From Physcia stellaris (taxonomy: Eukaryota > Ascomycota > Lecanoromycetes > Caliciales > Physciaceae), in the NCBI GenBank assembly GCA_018902385.1, contig JABSSW010000006.1, forward strand, positions 1 through 64,000: a stretch of 64,000 nucleotides of DNA, given 5' to 3'. Shown here in pieces: positions 10,220-63,830 of the stretch. The notes beneath the pieces are model-generated. The model searched no databases. It was not told the origin of the DNA and was given only the letters and a program-made list of their open reading frames with translations. Positions within the stretch are counted from its first letter, which is position 1. Every line of letters starts with the position of its first letter. The position numbers were made by a program, and so were the translations under genes.

Positions 10220-10224
10220 GCTCC
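10220..10224. repeat. Target-site duplication, left copy (GCTCC)
   Basis: The five bases before the left LTR match the five bases directly after the right LTR. Confidence 0.9.
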
Positions 10225-10367
10225 TGTTGAACAGAATCCTTGATTCAGTACTATCTAGAAAGCAAATGACTCATTATATACATATAATTACACGTTAATG
10301 AATAATTTCATGTATCAATCTTTGTATTAAATGATTGATCAATGACGTGTCGTTATTGTTTTCAACA
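10225..10367 (-). repeat. Left LTR (3' LTR of the minus-strand element)
   Basis: The 143-bp repeat is identical in length to the right LTR and begins TGTTG and ends CAACA. Its outer third is nearly unmutated, while the inner two thirds carry many C-to-T or G-to-A transitions relative to the right copy. Confidence 0.93.
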
Positions 10368-13300
10368 TTTTTTTCAATGAACATTTCATTGATTTTGCAT
10401 TCATTTGTTTTAATAATTCAAATATTTGTTTTGTTTTCGATTATTGTTCGACGAATTTCAAATCATGAAATTTGTAAATGTCAAAAATTTTACAAATGTT
10501 CGACGAATTTCAAATATTGAAATTTGTAAATGTCGAATGTTCGACGAATCATGAAATTTGTAAATGTCAAAAATTTTGTTTAAACAAATTTCAATTCAAA
10601 ATTTTTAATAAATTTATTAAACGTTTTTTCAATTAAAAATTTGATTAATTCATCGACAATTTGATTTTTGATAAAAACGAATTTTAAACGAATAAATTTT
10701 TCGATCATTTTTTTTTTGATGAAATGATAACGAATTTCGATGTGTTTTGTTTTGTCGTGATGCATTGAATTTTCGATCAAAATTATAACGTTTTTGTTAT
10801 CGATTTGAATAATCATTGTTTGTGATTCGAAATAATCAAATTTTTTCAACAATCGACGTATTCAAAATTTTTTTTGATCGTTTCAAATGTTATCATATAT
10901 TTAATTTCACAATTAAACAAAACGATCGTATTTTGTCGTTTGTTGTTTCAATTGATTGTTGTTTTTTCGAATTTGTACAAATAATTTTCAATTGATTTTT
11001 TGTCATTGTTTTTTGTTCAATTTGCATTCGTATAATTCAGAAATTTTTCATCGCAATATATCAATTTCAAATCAAAATATTTTTTCAAATATCGAAAAAT
11101 TCGTTGTATCGCAATTCAATGATCGTCAATGAAATTGAATGCAAAACGAAATATTTAAAAAATTTCAAATGTTATGTTTGAACGTGTTTTCAACATAAAA
11201 TACATTAATGAATTTATTGCGAATTGATATCGAATTTTATATGAATCGATGACGATAAAATTTTCGAAAATTGATTTCAAAATGACTTTTGAATTCATAA
11301 AATTTTCGATTTTTTTTAAATCATTGAAATTAAAATTCGTTATAATTTTTCGTAAATAAAATTTTTAATTAAATCGAATGATTTTTGTTGCGCGATTTCG
11401 TTGAATTTTCAATTTTAAATAATGAATTATTGAATTTAAATCGATTATACGAAAACGTTTTGAAAATTTTTGTTTGAAATTCGCAATTTTTGATCGATTA
11501 AATTTTAAAATTAATAAATCATTTACATAAATAATTACATAAATTTTTGATTCGTGATGATATACATTTGAATTTTCGAATATGACGTGATATTTCAAAA
11601 ATTTCAAAAATTCAATAAATGTTTTGAATCAAATTTTAAATGTTTGTTTTAAATCGTAAAATGTTTTTTTTAATTTACAAATCATGTCAAACTTTTCGAA
11701 TTCAATGAACATTTCACAATAAATTATTTCATTCAAATTTTTATAAAAAAACGTTGTTTTGATATTCATTTGTTCGATGTTTCAATCATGAAATGCGATT
11801 ATCGCAAAAAAATTTTTGTAAATTATCGATTTGACAATTGTTGCAAAAATTTCGTTAAAATCAATATCGTATTTTTGTTTAAATTTTCGAACGATTCATC
11901 GAATTTTATAACGTTAAATTTTTTTTTCAAAATTTTTTTTCAATTTGTAAATTCATTCATTCAATCGTTTTGTTGAAAAAAAATCATGATTTTTTTGTAA
12001 TTGATTGATTTTTGAAAATCGACGTTTAAAAAATTTCGAAATATTGTTTCGACGATGTTTTGATAAATTTCGACGTTGATTAATAAAATTGAAATTGAAA
12101 TAACGAAATTTTTTTTTTGTTTTTGAAATTTGACAATTGTGATTTGAATTTTTTTTAATAAATCGAAAATTTCGATTTCGAAATTTTGTTGACATTTCGC
12201 ATAAAATGTTTCGTCATATGAATTTTTTGAACGAATTTTTTTGTTTGATTTATTATGATCAATTAAATCATTTGATTTTTTTTGATTACGAAATTTTGAT
12301 TTTAACGTTGTCGACATATTGTCGTTCGACGAATTATGATTGACGTTGATGTCAAAACGAATTTTGACATTTGAACGATAATTTTTTTTTAAAATCGCAC
12401 ATTTCGAACGAATTTCATTTTTTTTTTGATTATGTTATAAATTCGATATTGATTTGAATTTTCATAATTCAAAAAAATGCATTTTTCGATTTTATCATTT
12501 GTGATTTTCAATAAAATTCGTGAAATGATTTTGTAATTCACATTGTCGAAAATACGCAAATGATCGAAATTTGATTTAATTTTTTTTCATGTTTCGTAAA
12601 AAGTGATTTTTTTCAAAACATTTGTTGATGAGCGATTTATGAAATAAATTTTGATACGAATCATTTTCGATCATAAATTGATATTCAAATTTGTGTTTTT
12701 GAATAAAATTTTGACGTCATTTCATATTGTGTGCATTGATTTTTTTGCAAATTCATTTTGTTTTGAATTGTAAAAAATCGTGAATTCATGTATTATTTTA
12801 TTAATTTTGACGATGTTCGTTATAATATTGAAAATGAATTTTTTTTCATTGTCAAAATGTCAACGTTTTATTTTGTGATTCGATTGAATTTTCATCATTG
12901 TGATGAATTGTTTAATTGTTTTTGAAACGTTCGATTTTTGTTTTAAAAAAAATATTCAACGAAATTTGATAATTTCATTCATACACAAAAGAAAATAACG
13001 TTTTTTTTTCATTGAAATTGAATAAAATTCGTTGACATTCAAATGAATTCGATCGTCAAAAATTGTATATCGTTTAAATTGTTTGATGAAATTTCGACGA
13101 ATTTGTTTGATCAAAACACATTTTTCGCAAAAATTCAACGTATCGATGAGTTTTAATTTTTCAATTACGTTTGATAAACGTTTTAAATAATTTTTTGATA
13201 AATGTTCGATTCGTTTATGAACAACGTCGATGTGAATTTTTTTGATTTTTTTGCACGTTGATAATTTCACAATTGTTGATAAAAATGAAAAAAACGACGT

Positions 13301-15781
13301 TGTAAATTTTAACGTGATTGAAACAATTTCGCGAACAATTGCATGATAAACGACGAAATGAATTTCGAAAAATATATTATCAACAAATATCAAACGATAC
13401 AGATTCGTGTCAATTACATTGATTTCAATGACGAAAATTTGTTGAATATCGATATGTGCGATTCGACAAGTTTTTTTTTTAAACGTCGTTTTCAATTTTT
13501 TTTTTCGAATGTTTTAATTGAAAACAAATTAAAAAAAAATTAAAAACGTATAACACGTTATGAATCACAATAATTTGATATTTGTTATTGATTGTAATTC
13601 GTATTTTGAACGTGTTTTGATTGATAACAACGTTTTTTTCATTGAAATCGAAAATCGTAATAAATTTGTTCAATTTGACGAAAAAAAAAAATCAAATTTG
13701 TTGTCGTTGATGTGACGATCAATTTCAAAATCGATATAATAATGATGATTTTTGAATATTTTCGAAAATGTATAAATCGAAATCATGACAAAACAAACAA
13801 ACATTATTTTTTTTTTTAACAACATAATTTCTCAACATGAAACGTTTGATTTTTACAAAGTAATTTTTCAACATGATTGAACATGTCAAAACATTTTCGT
13901 CAAAATTTTTCACAAATTCAAAATTGATCGACACAACGACGTTATGATTAATTTTGATTTTTTTGATTTTTTTTTCGAATGTTTTTTTTTTATGTGTTCG
14001 AATATTTCGATTTTGTTTCAACATTCGTTGTTTGAATATTTCATTTTTTCACAAACGTTGTATTTGATTTTTTTTTTAATTAAAATTGCAATTTTTTTAA
14101 TTTTCATGTATTTATTCAAAATATCAAAAATATTTGCAATTATTGCGTTGATTTTTTTATTGTCACAACAAAATTTAATGCAAATGATTTTGTAAACAAT
14201 AACACGAACATCGCGAAATTTGATTTTGAATTCGATTTTTGCAATTTTGTTGACAAAAATTTGTCAATTCATTTTTTTATCAATTTCAATAAAATCGTTG
14301 TTCGCAATGAAAAAATCAATAATAAAAAAATCGTAAACGTCGATGAAATAATTCACGAAATGAAAATTCATTTTTTATTTGCGAAAAACATAATCGTTGT
14401 GAATGATCGTCAAATCGTCGTTGTAAATGCGAAATTTGACGACAAAATCGTGAATATCGATAAAAATTTTCAAAATGATTGATCGAAATTTTTCGTGAAT
14501 TTCGATTACACGAAAATCGTTTTTTTTGATAAATTTGTTTTTCAATTCAATAATTATTTGAAAAACAATTTTTTTTTGTTGTAAAAATTTTCGAATTTTT
14601 CGTTCAACGATGTTGAAAATCAAATTTTTGACGACAATTTGAACGATAATTCATGATCGATTGTTTAGATTGACGATCGCAAAACGAATAATTACATTTG
14701 AAAAAATGTCGTTTTCGAAAAAAAAAAACAATTGATAATTTGCACAACAATAATAATATCGTTGAATCAAAATTGAAAATTATAATTTTTTTCAAATTTG
14801 AATGTGTTTTTCAAAAAAAAATGAACATTGTTGACAAATACGTTGAAAAAAATTTCGAAATTTATTGTTAAATATTTACGTTTGCGAAATCTAATGATAA
14901 AAATGAAAACAATGTAAATAAAATCACAATTCGATGATGATAAAATTTTGATAAAATGTTTCGAAATTATTATGTTTTCAATTGAAATGATCGAATTTTT
15001 TGTCATTGATTTTCAATTTTTTTTTGTCATAAAATTGATCAATCTTTTCACGATAATTGTGTTCGAATTAATTGCGTCATTTTCGAACGAAAATTCAAAT
15101 TCGTCAAATTGTTCGTCGTCGAAATTTTCATTTAATGTAAATTTGACGATGATTGAAAAAATCAAAATGATTGAAAAAATGATTGAAATTTTTGAAATCG
15201 ACGTTTTTGAAATGAATTTGAAAATAATTGTTTTTTTGAAATTTTATTCATGATTGACGCGTGTTAACAATGAATATTGCAAATATGATTAAAAAAATAT
15301 GTATGTGAATGAAAATTTTTGTTAATAACAACGAAATATTGACGCGATATTTATGTGTTAACAAATTCAATTGTAATGATGAAATTGACAAATAAATTGA
15401 TCGTTTCATTTTCGAAATATTTGCGAAATCAATTTGTTGTTGTTTCAAAAATAAAAAATTATGTTTAAAAAAATTAACGTAAATCATTTTTCGACGATTT
15501 TCGACATATAAAATATCAATTTTTGTTTTCTTTTTGCAACAACAAATCGATATTTTTTTGTCGTTTGTGTCAATTGATCGACATTTTTTCGTATGCGAAC
15601 GAACGTATGTATGCGTTTCATCGTTGATGATATGTCGATTGTTTAAAAAAAAATGCAACGATGAATGAAAATGAAACATGTTAATATATGATATCGAAAT
15701 GATGTTTGCATCGAATGTACGTATGTTGAATATTTGTTTGCTAACGAAATTCATACAGAAAGCAAATTCGAATTCATAATT

Positions 15782-15924
15782 TGTTGAACAAAATTTTTGA
15801 TTCAATACTATTTAGAGAGCAGATGACTCATTATATACATGTGATTACACGCTAATGAGTAGCTTCATGTATCAGCCTCTGTATTAGATGGCTGGTCAAT
15901 GACGTGTCGCTATTGCTTCCAACA
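15782..15924 (-). repeat. Right LTR (5' LTR of the minus-strand element)
   Basis: This 143-bp partner of the left LTR has only about the first 50 bases on its inner side mutated; the outer part is GC-balanced. There are no length differences and no transversions relative to the left copy. Confidence 0.93.
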
Positions 15925-15929
15925 GCTCC
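15925..15929. repeat. Target-site duplication, right copy (GCTCC)
   Basis: The five bases after the right LTR equal those before the left LTR, the expected footprint of copia integrase. Confidence 0.9.
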
Positions 15930-20789: not shown

Positions 20790-21441
20790 TTTCTTAGAAT
20801 TGAAATTATCAAATATCGTGATTTTCGTCATTTGACATTATCGTTTTGTTATCATCATCATCATTCGTACAACAAAAACATCACATTATTGACAATTCAC
20901 GATTATACGTTGAGACGTTGATGATGTTGCGTTCGAACATACACATAATTACGTTCAAATCGCAAAAATCGAACGTTTGTTCAAACAATTGACAATTGAT
21001 TTTTGATTGAATTTCATTGTTGCAATTGCAATTGCAACAATGTATATATACAAAAACTTTTTAACGTGCATTTCACATTAACGTTGTTGAATACATTAAC
21101 GTTGTTGAACGTTGATCGTCAATTAACACGATTATCGCATATCGTTAATACATCAATGCGTCAAAAATCGCATGATTTCGAATCGTTGCATTCGTTTTTA
21201 GCAAGTTTTCATGTCATTTCTCATATTAATTTGTATTGCAAAATATTTTTACAATTGTTCAACAACGACATCAACAATAAAAATGAATGATATGTTTGCA
21301 ATAATTGACATGAACTCATGTTAAAGCATGAAATAACTGTGATTGTCAATGAAAAACATTGAACAATATTTCTGATTCGATTGTTCGCTTTGTATGATAA
21401 ATCGTATGATAATTAAACGATTTAATTTGAAAATTCTTTTT
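20790..21441. other. Short AT-rich tract with RIP-like composition
   Basis: About 650 bp share the dinucleotide character of the large AT-rich blocks: C is almost always followed by A or G. No coding similarity is visible. It may be the remains of a short repeat or one end of a larger element. Confidence 0.6.
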
Positions 21442-21677
21442 GAATTTTCGTTTTATCTCAGGAATCCTTAGACGAAATACGAAATAAATTGTTTCGAAAT
21501 CAGGTTTATCCGAAAGCCGTGCACCTCACGCTAGGAAATAATTCTTGTACTGAGTTAATGAATTTTCGTCTTATCTCAGAGAGCTTTAGACGAAATACGG
21601 AATAGACTGTTCCGAAATCAGGTTTATCCGAAAGTCGTGCACCTCACGCTAGGAAATAATTCTTGTACTGAGTTAAC
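21442..21677. repeat. Tandem duplication, two 118-bp units
   Basis: Units 21442-21559 and 21560-21677 align end to end without gaps. Both contain GAAATCAGGTTTATCCGAAA and GTGCACCTCACGCTAGGAAA. Most differences are C/T or G/A, and most of these have the left unit in the T or A state, as if it was mutated more strongly. Confidence 0.9.
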
Positions 21678-58146: not shown

Positions 58147-58369
58147 GCTGCGCTGCCGGCAAACCTAGCCGCGAAGTCTGAGGTGCCACACTTCGCCAAT
58201 AGAACACAACCTATAAAAAAATGTCCATTAAAATCGCTTAACGCGAGTGATCGATCGAGAAAAATTCTGATCAATTCTGCGTTCGTATTCGTTAAAGTCG
58301 ATAATTTTCATCAATTGAAAATTCAAATTTTCAATCGAAACATACGTCAAAATCATTTCAAAATGCTTC

Positions 58370-58790
58370 AACAATTTGCAATTACTTCACATCGTGCACA
58401 TCAATCAGCAATCACATATGATTTTCATCTGATTAATCAATATTGTAAAGCAAAATCAGCGCATTTCAACGCGATAAAAATGACAAAAATTCGTTCATTA
58501 TCGCAATAGTTTTGAGATTTGAAAAATTATGTCGTTGTCAAATTTGTGTCAAACAACTGAAATGTTTGCGAAAATGTTTGCGAAAATGTTTCGTTTAATT
58601 TTCATCAATGTTTATACAATTGTTTCGCATTTTGCATTTCAATCAAAAATCACATATGATTTTCATTTATTTAGTCAATTTTGTAAAGTTAAATGAGCGC
58701 AATTTAACGTTGCAAAAATAACAAAAATCGATTCATTATCGCAATAATTTTGAGATTTCGAAAATTACGTCGTTGTTCGCTTCGCAGAAA
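58370..58790. repeat. Direct duplication with 240-bp period inside the left arm
   Basis: The stretch around 58441 and the stretch around 58681 align (TTGTAAAG, GAGCGCAATT / CAGCGCATTT, TTCATTATCGCAAT, TTTTGAGATTT). Both also match the right arm in reverse complement, so the left arm carries the outer motif twice. Confidence 0.8.
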
Positions 58791-59100
58791 TTTCGTTTTT
58801 TGAAAATTCAATTCTCAACAATGTTTGCAATGTTTCAATACGATTTCGATCATAACTCAATGCGACAACGATGAATTTTCGATATTATTGATTATTTGAA
58901 TAGTGCTCATTCTGTGCTTCAAAACGAGTTTTCGATTGTATGTTTTATTTATTGAGTTCAAATGCTATTAAGATGCGAAATCGATGAAGTCGCAAATCGA
59001 ATGCGAAATCATTTCGCAATCTTATCAGATTTGATTCTAATTCTAAGAACTCTCGACAAAGTTTTTTTTAAAAAAACTTTCGAATTTACTTGTTGCATAG
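58615..59100 (+). repeat. Left inverted arm (RIP-type mutated)
   Basis: It aligns to the reverse complement of 63561-63830 over about 300 bases, with one extra segment of about 185 bases in the left copy (about 58800-58985). Shared landmarks are TTCATTATCGCAAT, GCAATCTTATCAGAT and AAAGTTTTTTTTAAAAAAAC. Confidence 0.8.
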
Positions 59101-62100
59101 AACAAAAACGCTCGCAAAAATTCGCAAAAACATTTAACGTGAAAAAAACGTTTGCGAATTCTTGACATTTTCGTTTCGAAATTTTCTTTTTCAAATTTGT
59201 ATAATAATAATTTGAAAGAAATTTTCAATTGATGTATTAATTATTTTTTCAAGCATACATATCGTTGAAATCATAAATATTTTTGTATAATTGTTTTTTG
59301 ATGTTGCAAACATGTTTTTTCGCAAAATTTTAAAATTAATTTTAAATTTTGTTTGAAATACATTGAATGAAAAATCGATAAAACAACATCAAAAAACGAT
59401 TATACAGAAATATTTATGATTTCAACGATTTGTATGTTTGAAAAAATTATTTAAACATCAATTGCAAATTTTTTCAAATTATTATCGTACAAATTTGAAA
59501 AAAAAAAATCGAACGAAAAATTGTCAAAAATTCGCAAACGTTTTTTTCACGTTAAATATCGAACGAAACGCAACGTCGTCATTCGATGCATGACGTTCAG
59601 ATTATTTTTTTCGATTTCATTGCGAATCGAATGAATAACGATTTATTCATTTTAATAAATTCGTTTTGTAAAAAAATATACGATTGAATGATCAAATGAT
59701 TACAAACAAACGCAATGTTTACGAAACGATAATAAATCATCGTGATAACATTGTGAATAATGATAAAATTGAATCGTGAAAACGAAAAAAAATGAAAATT
59801 TTCGAAATGTTATATTTTATCGATCAAAACGTTAAATTCGATCAAATTAACGTGTTTGACGATTTTGACATAACATAACAATTGTTTTTTTTTTTAATTT
59901 TGATTTTCAAAATCGAATTGTCGATGTTTTTTTTGCGCGTAATTCATTCGATTTTTCAATTTTTTCGTTTAAAAAAATTTTTTGATAATAATTTTTTATG
60001 TGACGTTAATTCGTTGTTTGCGCGACGTTCAATCGAAATTTATTTGTAAATTTCAATGTTGATGTTCGCAATTATACGATAATTTCATTATTATTCGTGA
60101 TGTTGTCATTTGCAATGTATTACGACATTCATAATACACGACACGAATATGTTCAAATCAATATTCGTTCGAATCATCAATACATTGTTGTTTTTGTTGA
60201 ACACGCGAAAACAAACGTTTTTGCGACGTTTGTTTTTCGCGAATTCAAATTTTTTTGATTGTAATTTTTGATTTTTGTGTCACGCATTGTTTTTCGAATA
60301 TTGAAATAAACAATTTAAATCAATTTTTTGTATGATTCAAATAATTTAACGATAAAACGTTAAAATCAAAATTTTTTGATTTTAAAAATAATCGTTCAAA
60401 TCGATTTTTGAACAATGTTTTTTTTTTTTTTTTCATTTTTTTTTTGATTTAATGACGATTTTTTTACGTTTTATCAATGTCATTTGATTTTACGCGTGAT
60501 AATTTATTCGTGTCAAATTAAATTGACATATAATTTCAATTTGATTTTTATTTGTTATCGTTCAAATGATTTAATGATAAAACGCAAAAATGAAAATTTT
60601 TTTATTTTTGAAATTGTCGTTCGAATCGACGTTTGAACATTGTTTTTTATTTTTTTATTTTTCGATTTGTATTTTGATGACGATTTTTTTGCGTCATTTC
60701 AAATATAAATAAATTTGTTTTGATTTTCATTCATTTTTATTTTTACATGATTTATTTTCATTATCAATGACAAATGTTCATTGTAATTCAAATGATGAAA
60801 TGTTTATTGTAATTCATGAATCGATAACGTAACGACGATTTCATTCATTGTTACGTTTTCAATGTAAAATGAAAAAAATTAATTTTCAATTGTTCGAATC
60901 GACATTAATTGTCGTCGTTGAATAACGTTTTGTCGCGTTTATCGCATTTTTTTTTCGTTTTATTTGCGATTCATCGCGTTCGTCGTTTGTTTTGATAAAT
61001 ATGTTGAATATTTGATTAACGTTTTGACGCGTACACAAAAATTCATTGCGATTATTTTTTCATTTTTTTTTTTCAATATTATTTTGAAACAATTTGATAA
61101 AAATGTTTTTCGTGTTTAAATTGTGTTTCGTTGACGTTGACAATTTTGTACAATATCAAACATTGTTAACAATAAATTTATTGTTTTTTTTGATTGTTGT
61201 TATTAAAAACACAATGATTTCGCGTAACATCAAAATCAAAATTGTGAATTTGATTTGATTTCGTGATTTCGTGCGTTCATTTTTGTAATTTTTGAACGTG
61301 TCGTGAACACGTTTCGTGTAAAATATTGTATAAAATACGTTAAACGCAAATTTGACGATGTCGAACATAAAATATGTATTTTACGTTTTCAATTGATCGC
61401 GTTGATTTACGCAATATTTTCGATCGTTTCACGACGATAAATGTTTTACGTGCGTATCGATGCGCAAATTTTGTACGTTAATTTTTTTTAAATATGTTCG
61501 TCGAATTTAACAACATTTAATGATTTTGACAATTGCAATAAAAAACAAACGCACGAATTTGATGTTCAATTTGCAATTGCGTTTGAAAAATGCGATTGTG
61601 AAAATTCAACAACATTTCACAAAACAAAAAAAATCAAATCAATATCGTTTTATTGAAAATTTGTTAATGCGTTTGAAATTTCGATTCGTCGATATCAATG
61701 AAATTTTACGTTTTATGATCGATTCGTTTCGCGTCAATGAAAATTTTTCAATTATGCGTTTTGCGAATTTTTCGAATGATAAAAAAAACGAAAATTAAAT
61801 TTTTGTTAACGTTGAAATTATGAATTTCGACGAAAATGACGTCGAATAAACGTAATGATCGTTTTTGAACATTATTTTTATCAAAATCGAACAAATCGTA
61901 ATCAATCGAAAAAATCGATACAATAAAAACGAAAATAAAATTCAAAACGATGTTCATTGTAATTCACAAATTTTTGTTTGTGATTTTTTTAACACAAAAA
62001 CGACGACGAATTGAAAAAACATCGCATGAAAAAATTAATTGATAATTTGCAACATATTTATTAATCATTTGTACATATTCAATGCAACGACATAATTATT

Positions 62101-63560
62101 AAAAAAATGAATTTTATTAATTTTATTATTTGTAAAACAATTTATTGTAAAAAAATTCGCATTTTGCGTTTTTTTTTTGTTACAAATCGTCGTTTTTTTT
62201 TTTTTTGAATTTCAAATTTAATTTCGCAAAATTTCGTTTGAACGATCGTTTTTTTTCGAAACGAAAAATAACAATTGAATTTCGACACGTTTTCGTTTGA
62301 ACGTCGTCAACATTTCGTTGACGTTATTCAATTTTTTTTTAATTCATTCATTATCACATAATGAATATTTTTTCAACGAATCAAATATCGAAACATTTTT
62401 TTTTTCACGTCGAAAATCTTTTTTATTTTTCATTTTTCGTGATCGTTTATCAAAATTATTTTCGCAAACGATTTTGTGAATTCGTTGATATAATATTTTT
62501 CGAATAAAAACACGTGAAATATTGAATGAATGCGTCATTTGAATGACAATTTTAAACGATAAATTTACGTGTCGATAACGTTTTCAATTTCAAAAAATTC
62601 GATATATTTGTTCGACAATTTTTTTGATCGCATTTGATTTAAATTTTTGATCGACAACATGATTTTGTTTCAACATTGTATGTTTTCGCGAATGTTTTTT
62701 TGTTGATTTATTTTGTTTGCGTTTCATTATTGTGTTTCAAATTTTTCAATAATTTTTTCGTTTATCGAACAAGTTTTGAAATTTTTGTTTCGTTGTCGAA
62801 ATGTTTTGTTGAACAAAATCGAATTTAAAATTGAAATTTGAAATGTATTCGAACAAAATTTCAAACGAAATTAATTCAATAAACGTATGTTTCGCACAAT
62901 TGTATACGAAAACGATCATTAACAATAATGAAATTCAATTATTTTGTTTGTGATTGCAAAAACATCGCAAATAATATTTAAAAATTTAATTTTGTTTTTT
63001 TGTTTGATTATTCGTTTGTAAATGAAAAACGATGTTAAATTTGCGTTTAATTTTTGCGTAATAACACAATGTTGATCAAAAATTGTTTGTGAACAAAAAT
63101 TTACAATTCGAAATTATGTTTTTCGATGATTTATATTTTAAAAAAACATCGTCGAAAAACAAATTACACATTTCGTTCGTTTTCATGATAAATTTTATCG
63201 AAACGTAAATTGTCATTTTTGTGTAACGATTTATTATTATTATAATCGAATCGTAAATTTTTTTGCGTCATTTGTTTGATGAAAATTTTGTAATTATATC
63301 GATAATAATTTTTTTTCATAATTTTGTCGATATCGACAATTTCGACAATTTTTCGTAAAAACGATAATAATGAATTTTTGTTTTTTGACATATCGCGCAT
63401 TTTTTGATGTATTTTTCGATGTTTTTTCGCATGTACATTCAATAAAATTTTCGTTGAATAAAATCAACGATTTTTTCAATTTCGAAATGTTTCGCAAAAA
63501 AATCGTCGTGACAACGTCGCAAAATTTCGATTTTTAAATTTGTTTCATTTAATACATATA

Positions 63561-63830
63561 CAACACAAGTAGGCCCGGAAGTTTTTTTAAAAAAAACTTT
63601 GTCGGAAACTCTTAGGGTTAGGGTCAGATCTGATAAGATTGCAGCATCCGAAGCGGGCACAAAGTTGGCCACGGCGTAGTTTTCGAAGCCCCAGAACTAT
63701 TGCGATAATGAACCGATTTCTGTTATTTCTGCGGCGTTGGAATGCGCTCATTTCGCTTTACAATTCTGGCTAGATGAGTGAGAATCATAAGTGGTTGTTG
63801 ATTGGGGTGCAAGATGCGAAGCAACTGTAC
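63561..63830 (-). repeat. Right inverted arm (GC-balanced, unmutated)
   Basis: The reverse complement matches the left arm; where they differ the left arm mostly has T or A. A 21-bp palindrome of A/T runs (63579-63599) is retained in both arms. An open minus frame crosses this arm (around AILSDLTLTLRVSDKVFFKK), and the left arm keeps a similar reading, AILSDLILILRTLDKVFFKK. Confidence 0.8.
63612..63623 (+). repeat. Two telomere-type units (TTAGGG) inside the right arm
   Basis: TTAGGGTTAGGG is the canonical ascomycete telomere repeat, here only two units long and internal. The left arm carries the mutated inverted equivalent. Two units can arise by chance. Confidence 0.6.

Follow-up and report, generated by a model that had tools for sequence, protein, structure and literature searches.

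C-to-T mutation at CpC and CpT, sparing CpA and CpG, in AT-rich DNA of Physcia stellaris: a probable variant of repeat-induced point mutation

Introduction

A broken Ty1/copia-type long terminal repeat (LTR) retrotransposon with a GC content of ~ 0.23 lies on the minus strand at 10225–15924 of contig JABSSW010000006.1 in the Physcia stellaris assembly GCA_018902385.1. It falls within the first 64,000 nucleotides of the contig, the whole of which was analysed and is referred to here as the window. The element raises the question of what kind of process has mutated it. A preliminary description of the window, made from the letters alone, had proposed a mutator resembling repeat-induced point mutation (RIP) that acts on cytosines followed by T or C and spares those followed by A or G, a preference different from that of classical RIP. 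We have followed up this proposal in the LTR pair, in a family of Ty3/gypsy elements, in the ribosomal DNA (rDNA) and in a sample of the genome, together with a search for DNA methyltransferase genes. In what follows, CpY stands for CpC and CpT, and CpR for CpA and CpG. Genome-level counts cover the window and the loci fetched from the assembly (given L numbers), that is, a sample of the bases of the genome.

Results

The LTR pair and its host element

The element is bounded by a direct repeat of 143 bp (left LTR, 10225–10367; right LTR, 15782–15924) that aligns without gaps at 84% identity; at a minimum length of 60 bp, no other repeat was reported between 9900 and 16300. Seven pieces between stop codons were queried separately for domains and four of them gave matches, which follow the copia order on the minus strand: a gag_pre-integrase piece at 12956–13513 (E = 5.9e-8), a piece of SH3_retrovirus, the retroviral SH3-like, integrase C-terminal domain, at 12389–12586 (E = 1.6e-10) and two fragments of RVT_2 within 11365–11781 (E = 4e-7, 30.3 bits, and E = 0.0024, 17.9 bits, both below the curated cut-off of 31.6). 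The flanks carry a perfect 5-bp target-site duplication, GCTCC, at 10220–10224 and 15925–15929; it is flank sequence and is unmutated on both sides, despite containing a CpT and a CpC.

The two LTRs differ at 23 positions, each of them C/T or G/A, with 16 at CpT, 5 at CpC, 2 at CpA and none at CpG, which is exactly the count given in the preliminary description. Cytosines identical in both LTRs are found at 23 CpA, 6 CpG and 5 CpT sites, and the comparison of changed with kept sites, CpY against CpR, gives p = 7e-9 in Fisher's test. The left LTR bears 18 of the 23 differences and the right LTR the remaining 5, all within its inner 31 bp. The borders of the element are visible in the density of CpY: at the left border the number per 50 bp is 11–18 on the outside, falls to 9 in the outermost 50 bp of the element and to 0–1 further in, and at the right border it climbs from 0 to 11 across the final 200 bp of the element.

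The LTR differences are not decisive on their own, because the repeats of fungi with classical RIP can align with mainly CpT differences. The pair might thus be a product of classical, CpA-type RIP in which CpA has been exhausted and only differences at CpT can still be seen; a passage in PMC7882544 indicates that repeat alignments of RIP-capable fungi may be mostly CpT. The deciding evidence, beyond the LTRs, is the retention of CpA together with the low frequency of TpA. In AT-rich blocks, whether from the window or from the fetched loci, CpA occurs at a gene-like frequency and the TpA/ApT ratio has a mean of 0.41 and a maximum of 0.48; none of 32 AT-rich blocks is positive for the classical RIP indices, the minimum of the substrate index being 1.19; and 418 of 444 CpA sites are kept in the polarised copy described below. 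There is accordingly neither a depletion of CpA nor an excess of TpA in the fetched loci, a combination that the preliminary description had named as refuting its proposal. Saturated CpA-type RIP is refuted by this retention of CpA and we give it next to no credence.

A polarised family of gypsy elements

The direction of change can be read from a Ty3/gypsy family with one unmutated copy (L005, GC 0.51), in which reverse transcriptase and integrase-like frames were recognised by eye. This copy served as the reference for 11 relatives; alignment rows below ~ 65% identity were dropped before counting, because unrelated AT-rich DNA mutually aligns at 57–60%. In the cleanest pair, L005 and L022, 3,464 bases hold 918 changes from C to T or G to A, one from T to C, none from A to G and one transversion. 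Both strands are affected, with 389 C-to-T and 529 G-to-A changes. By context, the changed sites are 438 of 440 CpC, 452 of 463 CpT, 26 of 444 CpA and 0 of 410 CpG. Other substitutions amount to 0.06% against 98.6% of CpY sites changed, and the mutation of this pair was therefore a burst rather than a slow decay.

The other ten copies show 533–931 C:G to T:A changes beside 32–116 other substitutions, and all 11 together have 97.5% of CpC, 86.7% of CpT, 7.3% of CpA and 3.5% of CpG mutated. Genome-wide, 19 matches to the family were obtained, one of them unmutated and the other 18 at 70–76% identity; nine of the mutated loci were fetched, seven of these had already been counted and the two new ones (L067 and L069) agree. 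The context bias of the LTR pair recurs in a duplicated family, whose copies are mutated mostly at CpC and CpT and not at CpA.

The base on the 5' side has little effect, CpT being mutated in 83–90% of cases whatever precedes it. This bears on ultraviolet-type or other damage at dipyrimidines, for which it could be said that CpC and CpT are both dipyrimidines. TpCpA and TpCpG are dipyrimidine sites as well and are kept (TCA, 1098 kept and 82 changed; TCG, 1120 kept and 37 changed, over the 11 copies), and damage of this kind would cross the borders of elements. With no 5' effect to support it we reject this explanation, the probability of which is vanishingly small. Among the few CpA sites that are mutated, the second base on the 3' side makes a difference, with 9–15% mutated when a pyrimidine follows the CpA and 3–5% when a purine does (CpApC 15%, CpApT 9%, CpApA 5% and CpApG 3%).

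Context bias across the genome sample

The same contexts are distinguished in the genome sample. For the comparison of AT-rich DNA (38 segments, 97 kb) with GC-balanced DNA (132 kb), and for the list of blocks, L004, L055 and L056 were excluded as duplicates. In the AT-rich set, the ratio C/(C + T) has values of 0.54 and 0.48 where the next base is A or G, respectively, and of 0.071 and 0.0045 where it is T or C; in the GC-balanced set, it lies between 0.41 and 0.66 across all 16 trinucleotide contexts. A CpY index (CC + GG + CT + AG over TC + GA + TT + AA) is 0.06 in AT-rich blocks compared with 0.92 elsewhere. Retention in AT-rich blocks is capped at 0.063 for CpC and spans 0.001–0.175 for CpT, from which it follows that CpC is consumed before CpT.

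Since blocks picked by their GC content would partly build two peaks into any distribution of retention, we used fixed 500-bp windows, from which L060–L070 were excluded in addition to the three duplicates. CpY retention in these is bimodal: of 463 such windows, 199 have a value below 0.20 and 255 a value of 0.35 or more, which leaves 9 with intermediate values, four of them from the scanned 64-kb window. Twenty stretches of 3 kb, picked at round-number positions on 18 contigs (mostly contigs already known from the list of reverse-transcriptase matches), comprise 3 that are AT-rich, all with the signature, and 17 that are normal. The observed/expected ratios in the three are 0.00–0.03 for CC/GG, 0.14–0.47 for CT/AG, 2.7–4.1 for CG and 0.38–0.40 for TA. 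When the 120 fixed windows of these 20 stretches are taken by themselves, 18 are below 0.20, 101 are at 0.35 or above and 1 lies between. Reverse-transcriptase loci are divided in a similar manner: among 30 of them (L005–L034), 23 have a GC content of 0.23–0.31 and the signature, the weakest being L021 with CC at 0.21 and CT at 0.62, one is mixed (L010, GC 0.37) and six are GC-balanced and normal (L005–L008, L019 and L033).

An artefact of assembly or sequencing, for which we found no supporting point, would have to recur across many contigs, stop sharply at a target-site duplication and affect different copies to different degrees. On these three grounds it is rejected, and its likelihood is negligible.

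Displaced ribosomal DNA and stop codons

The sole match to 5.8S rDNA in the assembly is a mutated rDNA pseudogene on contig C41 (C41:41400–49700, L057–L059). It was compared with Rfam consensus sequences in two alignments, the first using 6 of the 8 printed large-subunit (LSU) blocks, both 5.8S blocks and none of the small-subunit (SSU) blocks, and the second using 5 of 8 LSU and 5 of 8 SSU blocks; blocks with skipped stretches, gaps or a variable consensus were excluded. Where only upper-case consensus pairs are counted, those changed to T are 50 of 58 CC, 32 of 63 CU, 2 of 48 CA and 0 of 44 CG. The contrast is weaker at all consensus positions, as expected given that the Rfam consensus is not this species: in the LSU blocks of the first alignment, 9 of 50 CA, 13 of 66 CG, 66 of 101 CC and 38 of 63 CU are changed, and in its 5.8S blocks 0 of 21, 5 of 26, 13 of 15 and 8 of 11, respectively. 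A conserved 18S pattern that a functional gene would also match has a single occurrence, and this is mutated. With a mutated pseudogene as the only 5.8S match, species barcoding is at risk, as a barcode derived from this assembly would mislead. The 18S pseudogene (L059, L057) also has insertions of ~ 200–300 nt relative to the Rfam model, which are possibly introns.

These counts, with those of the gypsy family, bear on APOBEC-like deamination of retroelement cDNA. Such editing could account for the dense C-to-T change in retroelements. It would be expected to leave a strand-specific pattern, which is not seen (CC and GG are both absent or nearly so), and the rDNA is affected too. APOBEC-like editing is rejected on the strand pattern and must be considered very improbable; the APOBEC_N profile has no match in the genome, which says little as it matched no control genome either.

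The effect on coding sequences is seen in the reverse-transcriptase matches, of which there are at least 150 (150 of 527 candidates were scored). In 149 transcribed out of 150 rows, in-match stops comprise 249 TGA, 33 TAA and 3 TAG and affect 139 matches. The background share of TGA among stop triplets, taken from three of the window's AT-rich blocks, is 53%, and the excess over it is therefore real (p = 1e-30). Dominance of TGA is predicted by GG-to-GA change in tryptophan codons and not by loss of CpA in glutamine codons. At the level of genes, the consequence is that glutamine codons are spared and TGA is the main stop.

Other AT-rich blocks of the window

The preliminary description had claimed the same bias for every AT-rich block in the window, and the dinucleotide counts bear this out for all four. 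Their CC + GG counts are 0, 5, 0 and 2, and the observed/expected ratios are 0.09–0.22 for CT and AG, 2.4–3.8 for CG and 0.40–0.52 for TA. Besides the copia element, they comprise a block at the start of the contig (1–4027), which has neither CC nor GG, a short block at 20790–21441 and a block at 58200–63560 whose right border lies within ~ 50 bp; the latter two have the signature of CpC and CpT depletion. The window's blocks are sharply bordered. Simulated full CpY mutation of gene DNA from the window gives a GC content of 0.24 and ratios of 3.59 for CG, 0.33 for TA and 1.49 for CA, and three of the window's blocks have 0.22–0.26, 3.7–3.8, 0.38–0.47 and 1.28–1.45, respectively. Since mutation at CpY alone reproduces both the CpG excess and the TpA deficit, no second process is needed for either.

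Change can also be polarised inside the window, by means of an unmutated inverted copy at 63565–63829 of pieces 58379–58548, 58615–58773 and 59016–59093. In the best pair with a mutated copy, the changed cytosines are 11 of 12 at CC, 13 of 17 at CT, 2 of 19 at CG and 2 of 21 at CA; a second, noisier copy gives 8 of 13, 9 of 16, 6 of 17 and 2 of 21, and a third, small one 9 of 9, 3 of 11, 0 of 4 and 0 of 5. The unmutated copy contains two telomere-like TTAGGG units (63613–63625), whose counterparts in the mutated piece at ~ 59 kb are altered. Adjoining the short block is an unmutated 118-bp tandem pair (21441–21676), 92% identical and situated in DNA of normal composition; short repeats such as this may fall under a length threshold.

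DNA methyltransferase genes

A search with Pfam PF00145 gave four matches at three genes, on contigs C3, C5 and C6. The preliminary description had pointed to RID-like and DIM-2-like enzymes as those to look for, and both kinds are present, with one DIM-2-type gene and two of the Masc1/RID type. The gene on C3 is DIM-2-type and has a long open frame of 1009 residues, ended by the edge of the locus; residues 220–905 are similar (E = 2e-181) to PDB entries 9bap/9baq, which we take to be Neurospora DIM-2 and whose entry label reads only DNA (cytosine-5-)-methyltransferase. The C5 protein is RID-type with EQT in motif VI. The C6 protein is a second, shorter RID-type protein with EET in motif VI and is 39% identical to the C5 protein where the two align. 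Both have PPCQ, containing the PCQ of motif IV (C5 cytosine methylase domain, PF00145), and a target-recognition region between motifs VIII and IX of ~ 75–85 residues, counted by eye with introns joined by eye. According to passages of PMC6709928, Masc1/RID proteins are distinguished by EQT or EET in place of ENV in motif VI and by a target-recognition region of ~ 80 residues, EQT and EET being the two triads of the group, with EET carried by Botrytis Rid. In sequence, the C5 and C6 proteins agree with this description in the triad and the short target-recognition region, and their PCQ is likewise in keeping with the Masc1/RID type. A search of the genome for SET domains gave 17 matches, none of which was assigned to DIM-5.

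Discussion

We consider it probable that this filamentous-fungus-like genome has a repeat mutator of the RIP type that is strictly specific for CpY and works on either strand; one of the two RID-type enzymes may write the mutations. The proposal of a mutator with a sequence preference other than that of classical RIP is supported by the kept CpA, the low TpA and the CpC and CpT changes in the gypsy copies. Targeting of repeats is suggested by borders at the LTR ends, the unmutated target-site duplication, a family of 19 matches and the normal state of GC-balanced DNA. Duplicated DNA would be recognised, with homology as the putative trigger. C is changed to T on both strands, only before a pyrimidine: CpC goes almost to completion and CpT nearly so, with a few percent of CpA and hardly any CpG. 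The process may act around mating, as in RIP. The writer would be a Masc1/RID-type methyltransferase (the C5 EQT-type or the C6 EET-type) with changed recognition of the 3' neighbour, rather than DIM-2, and a RID-type enzyme of altered specificity is a plausible cause. Tentatively, this can be taken a step further: a duplication of Masc1/RID may have given rise to the CpY-specific mutator, the C6 EET paralogue recognising the 3' pyrimidine and mutating CpC and then CpT while the C5 EQT copy has another, perhaps developmental, role. We regard this version as possible, with clearly less than an even prospect of being correct.

The other candidate for the writer is DIM-2, through heterochromatin-directed methylation that prefers CpY and is followed by deamination to T. 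The DIM-2-type gene on C3 with its long open frame fits such a role, and a passage of a 2026 review (PMC13297926) credits Neurospora DIM-2 with methylation in every CpN context and a preference for CpT. Here, however, CpC is the strongest target and CpG and CpA are nearly untouched, unlike the expectation for a methylase of all contexts, and the 918 transitions against 2 other substitutions would require a very fast conversion instead of slow decay. We therefore find DIM-2 an unlikely author of the signature, though a more serious contender than damage, editing or artefact.

Three observations weigh against a repeat mutator of RID type as set out above. Two Ty3/gypsy copies, L006 (C5:1165021–1168497) and L007 (C12:58812–62288), are 95% identical over 3.5 kb and are not depleted of CpY, their differences having only a slight lean towards CpY (74 of 893 against 48 of 877 sites, p = 0.02); recognition of repeats must therefore be incomplete or not current. 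Surviving CpT sites are common to eight copies beyond independence, 180 of 414 being kept in none where 109 are expected, so that mutation and copying may have gone through intermingled rounds, or the rate may differ from site to site. Finally, repeat status is established for only part of the AT-rich blocks. The escape of L006 and L007 and the shared CpT sites might be read as incomplete or interrupted action, for example if copies never met in a cross.

The features of the RIP process are present in that the changes are near-exclusively C:G to T:A transitions (918 of 920 in the cleanest pair) and affect both strands. Those of classical CpA-type RIP, namely a preference for CpA, raised TpA and positive indices, are absent from the 32 AT-rich blocks. 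As the process works like RIP yet fails the classical CpA-type test, it is most likely a variant of RIP. The standard TpA/ApT, substrate and composite indices are blind to saturated CpY blocks, which they score as unmutated, and RIP may therefore have been missed in some of the fungi reported to lack it. If there is indeed a CpY-specific paralogue, genomes scored as free of RIP may carry the same system. How RID-type enzymes choose their targets, and whether they act by methylation or deamination, is an old open question, and a natural set of enzymes whose neighbour specificity is nearly inverted and almost absolute opens it to domain-swap experiments. Among the titles, abstract openings and passages of open-licence PMC papers, we found no description of RIP at CpC and CpT only.

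Comparison with known RIP systems

The process resembles classical Neurospora RIP in its near-pure C-to-T and G-to-A change, on both strands, dense, and in repeats including displaced rDNA, and in the presence of RID-type and DIM-2-type genes. It differs in the order of contexts, which passages of PMC5496416 give as CpA > CpT > CpG > CpC in Neurospora crassa and which is CpC > CpT >> CpA > CpG here, in the fall of TpA and in stops that are mostly TGA. C-to-T change in duplicated DNA is shared with Trichoderma reesei, for which the same passages give CpA ~ CpG, then CpT > CpC; CpC is the least affected context there and the most affected here. Mutation in Colletotrichum truncatum, as described in part of PMC6180176, includes CpT-biased families in which TpA/ApT is still 1.6–1.7. 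Passages of Amselem 2015 (PMC4352252) report a CpT signature in Botrytis, Sclerotinia and Magnaporthe, with a CpA co-signature in the same genomes, and CpG-type transposon mutation in Microbotryum, with CpG mixed with CpA in Tuber. In Microbotryum and Tuber, the likeness is C-to-T change in transposons, and the difference is that CpG is the least affected context here. The Botrytis, Sclerotinia and Magnaporthe group has in common with the present case a favoured CpT and a RID/Masc1 gene, the EET triad being common to Botrytis Rid and the C6 protein; in Physcia stellaris, unlike these fungi, mutation begins at CpC and leaves CpA alone.

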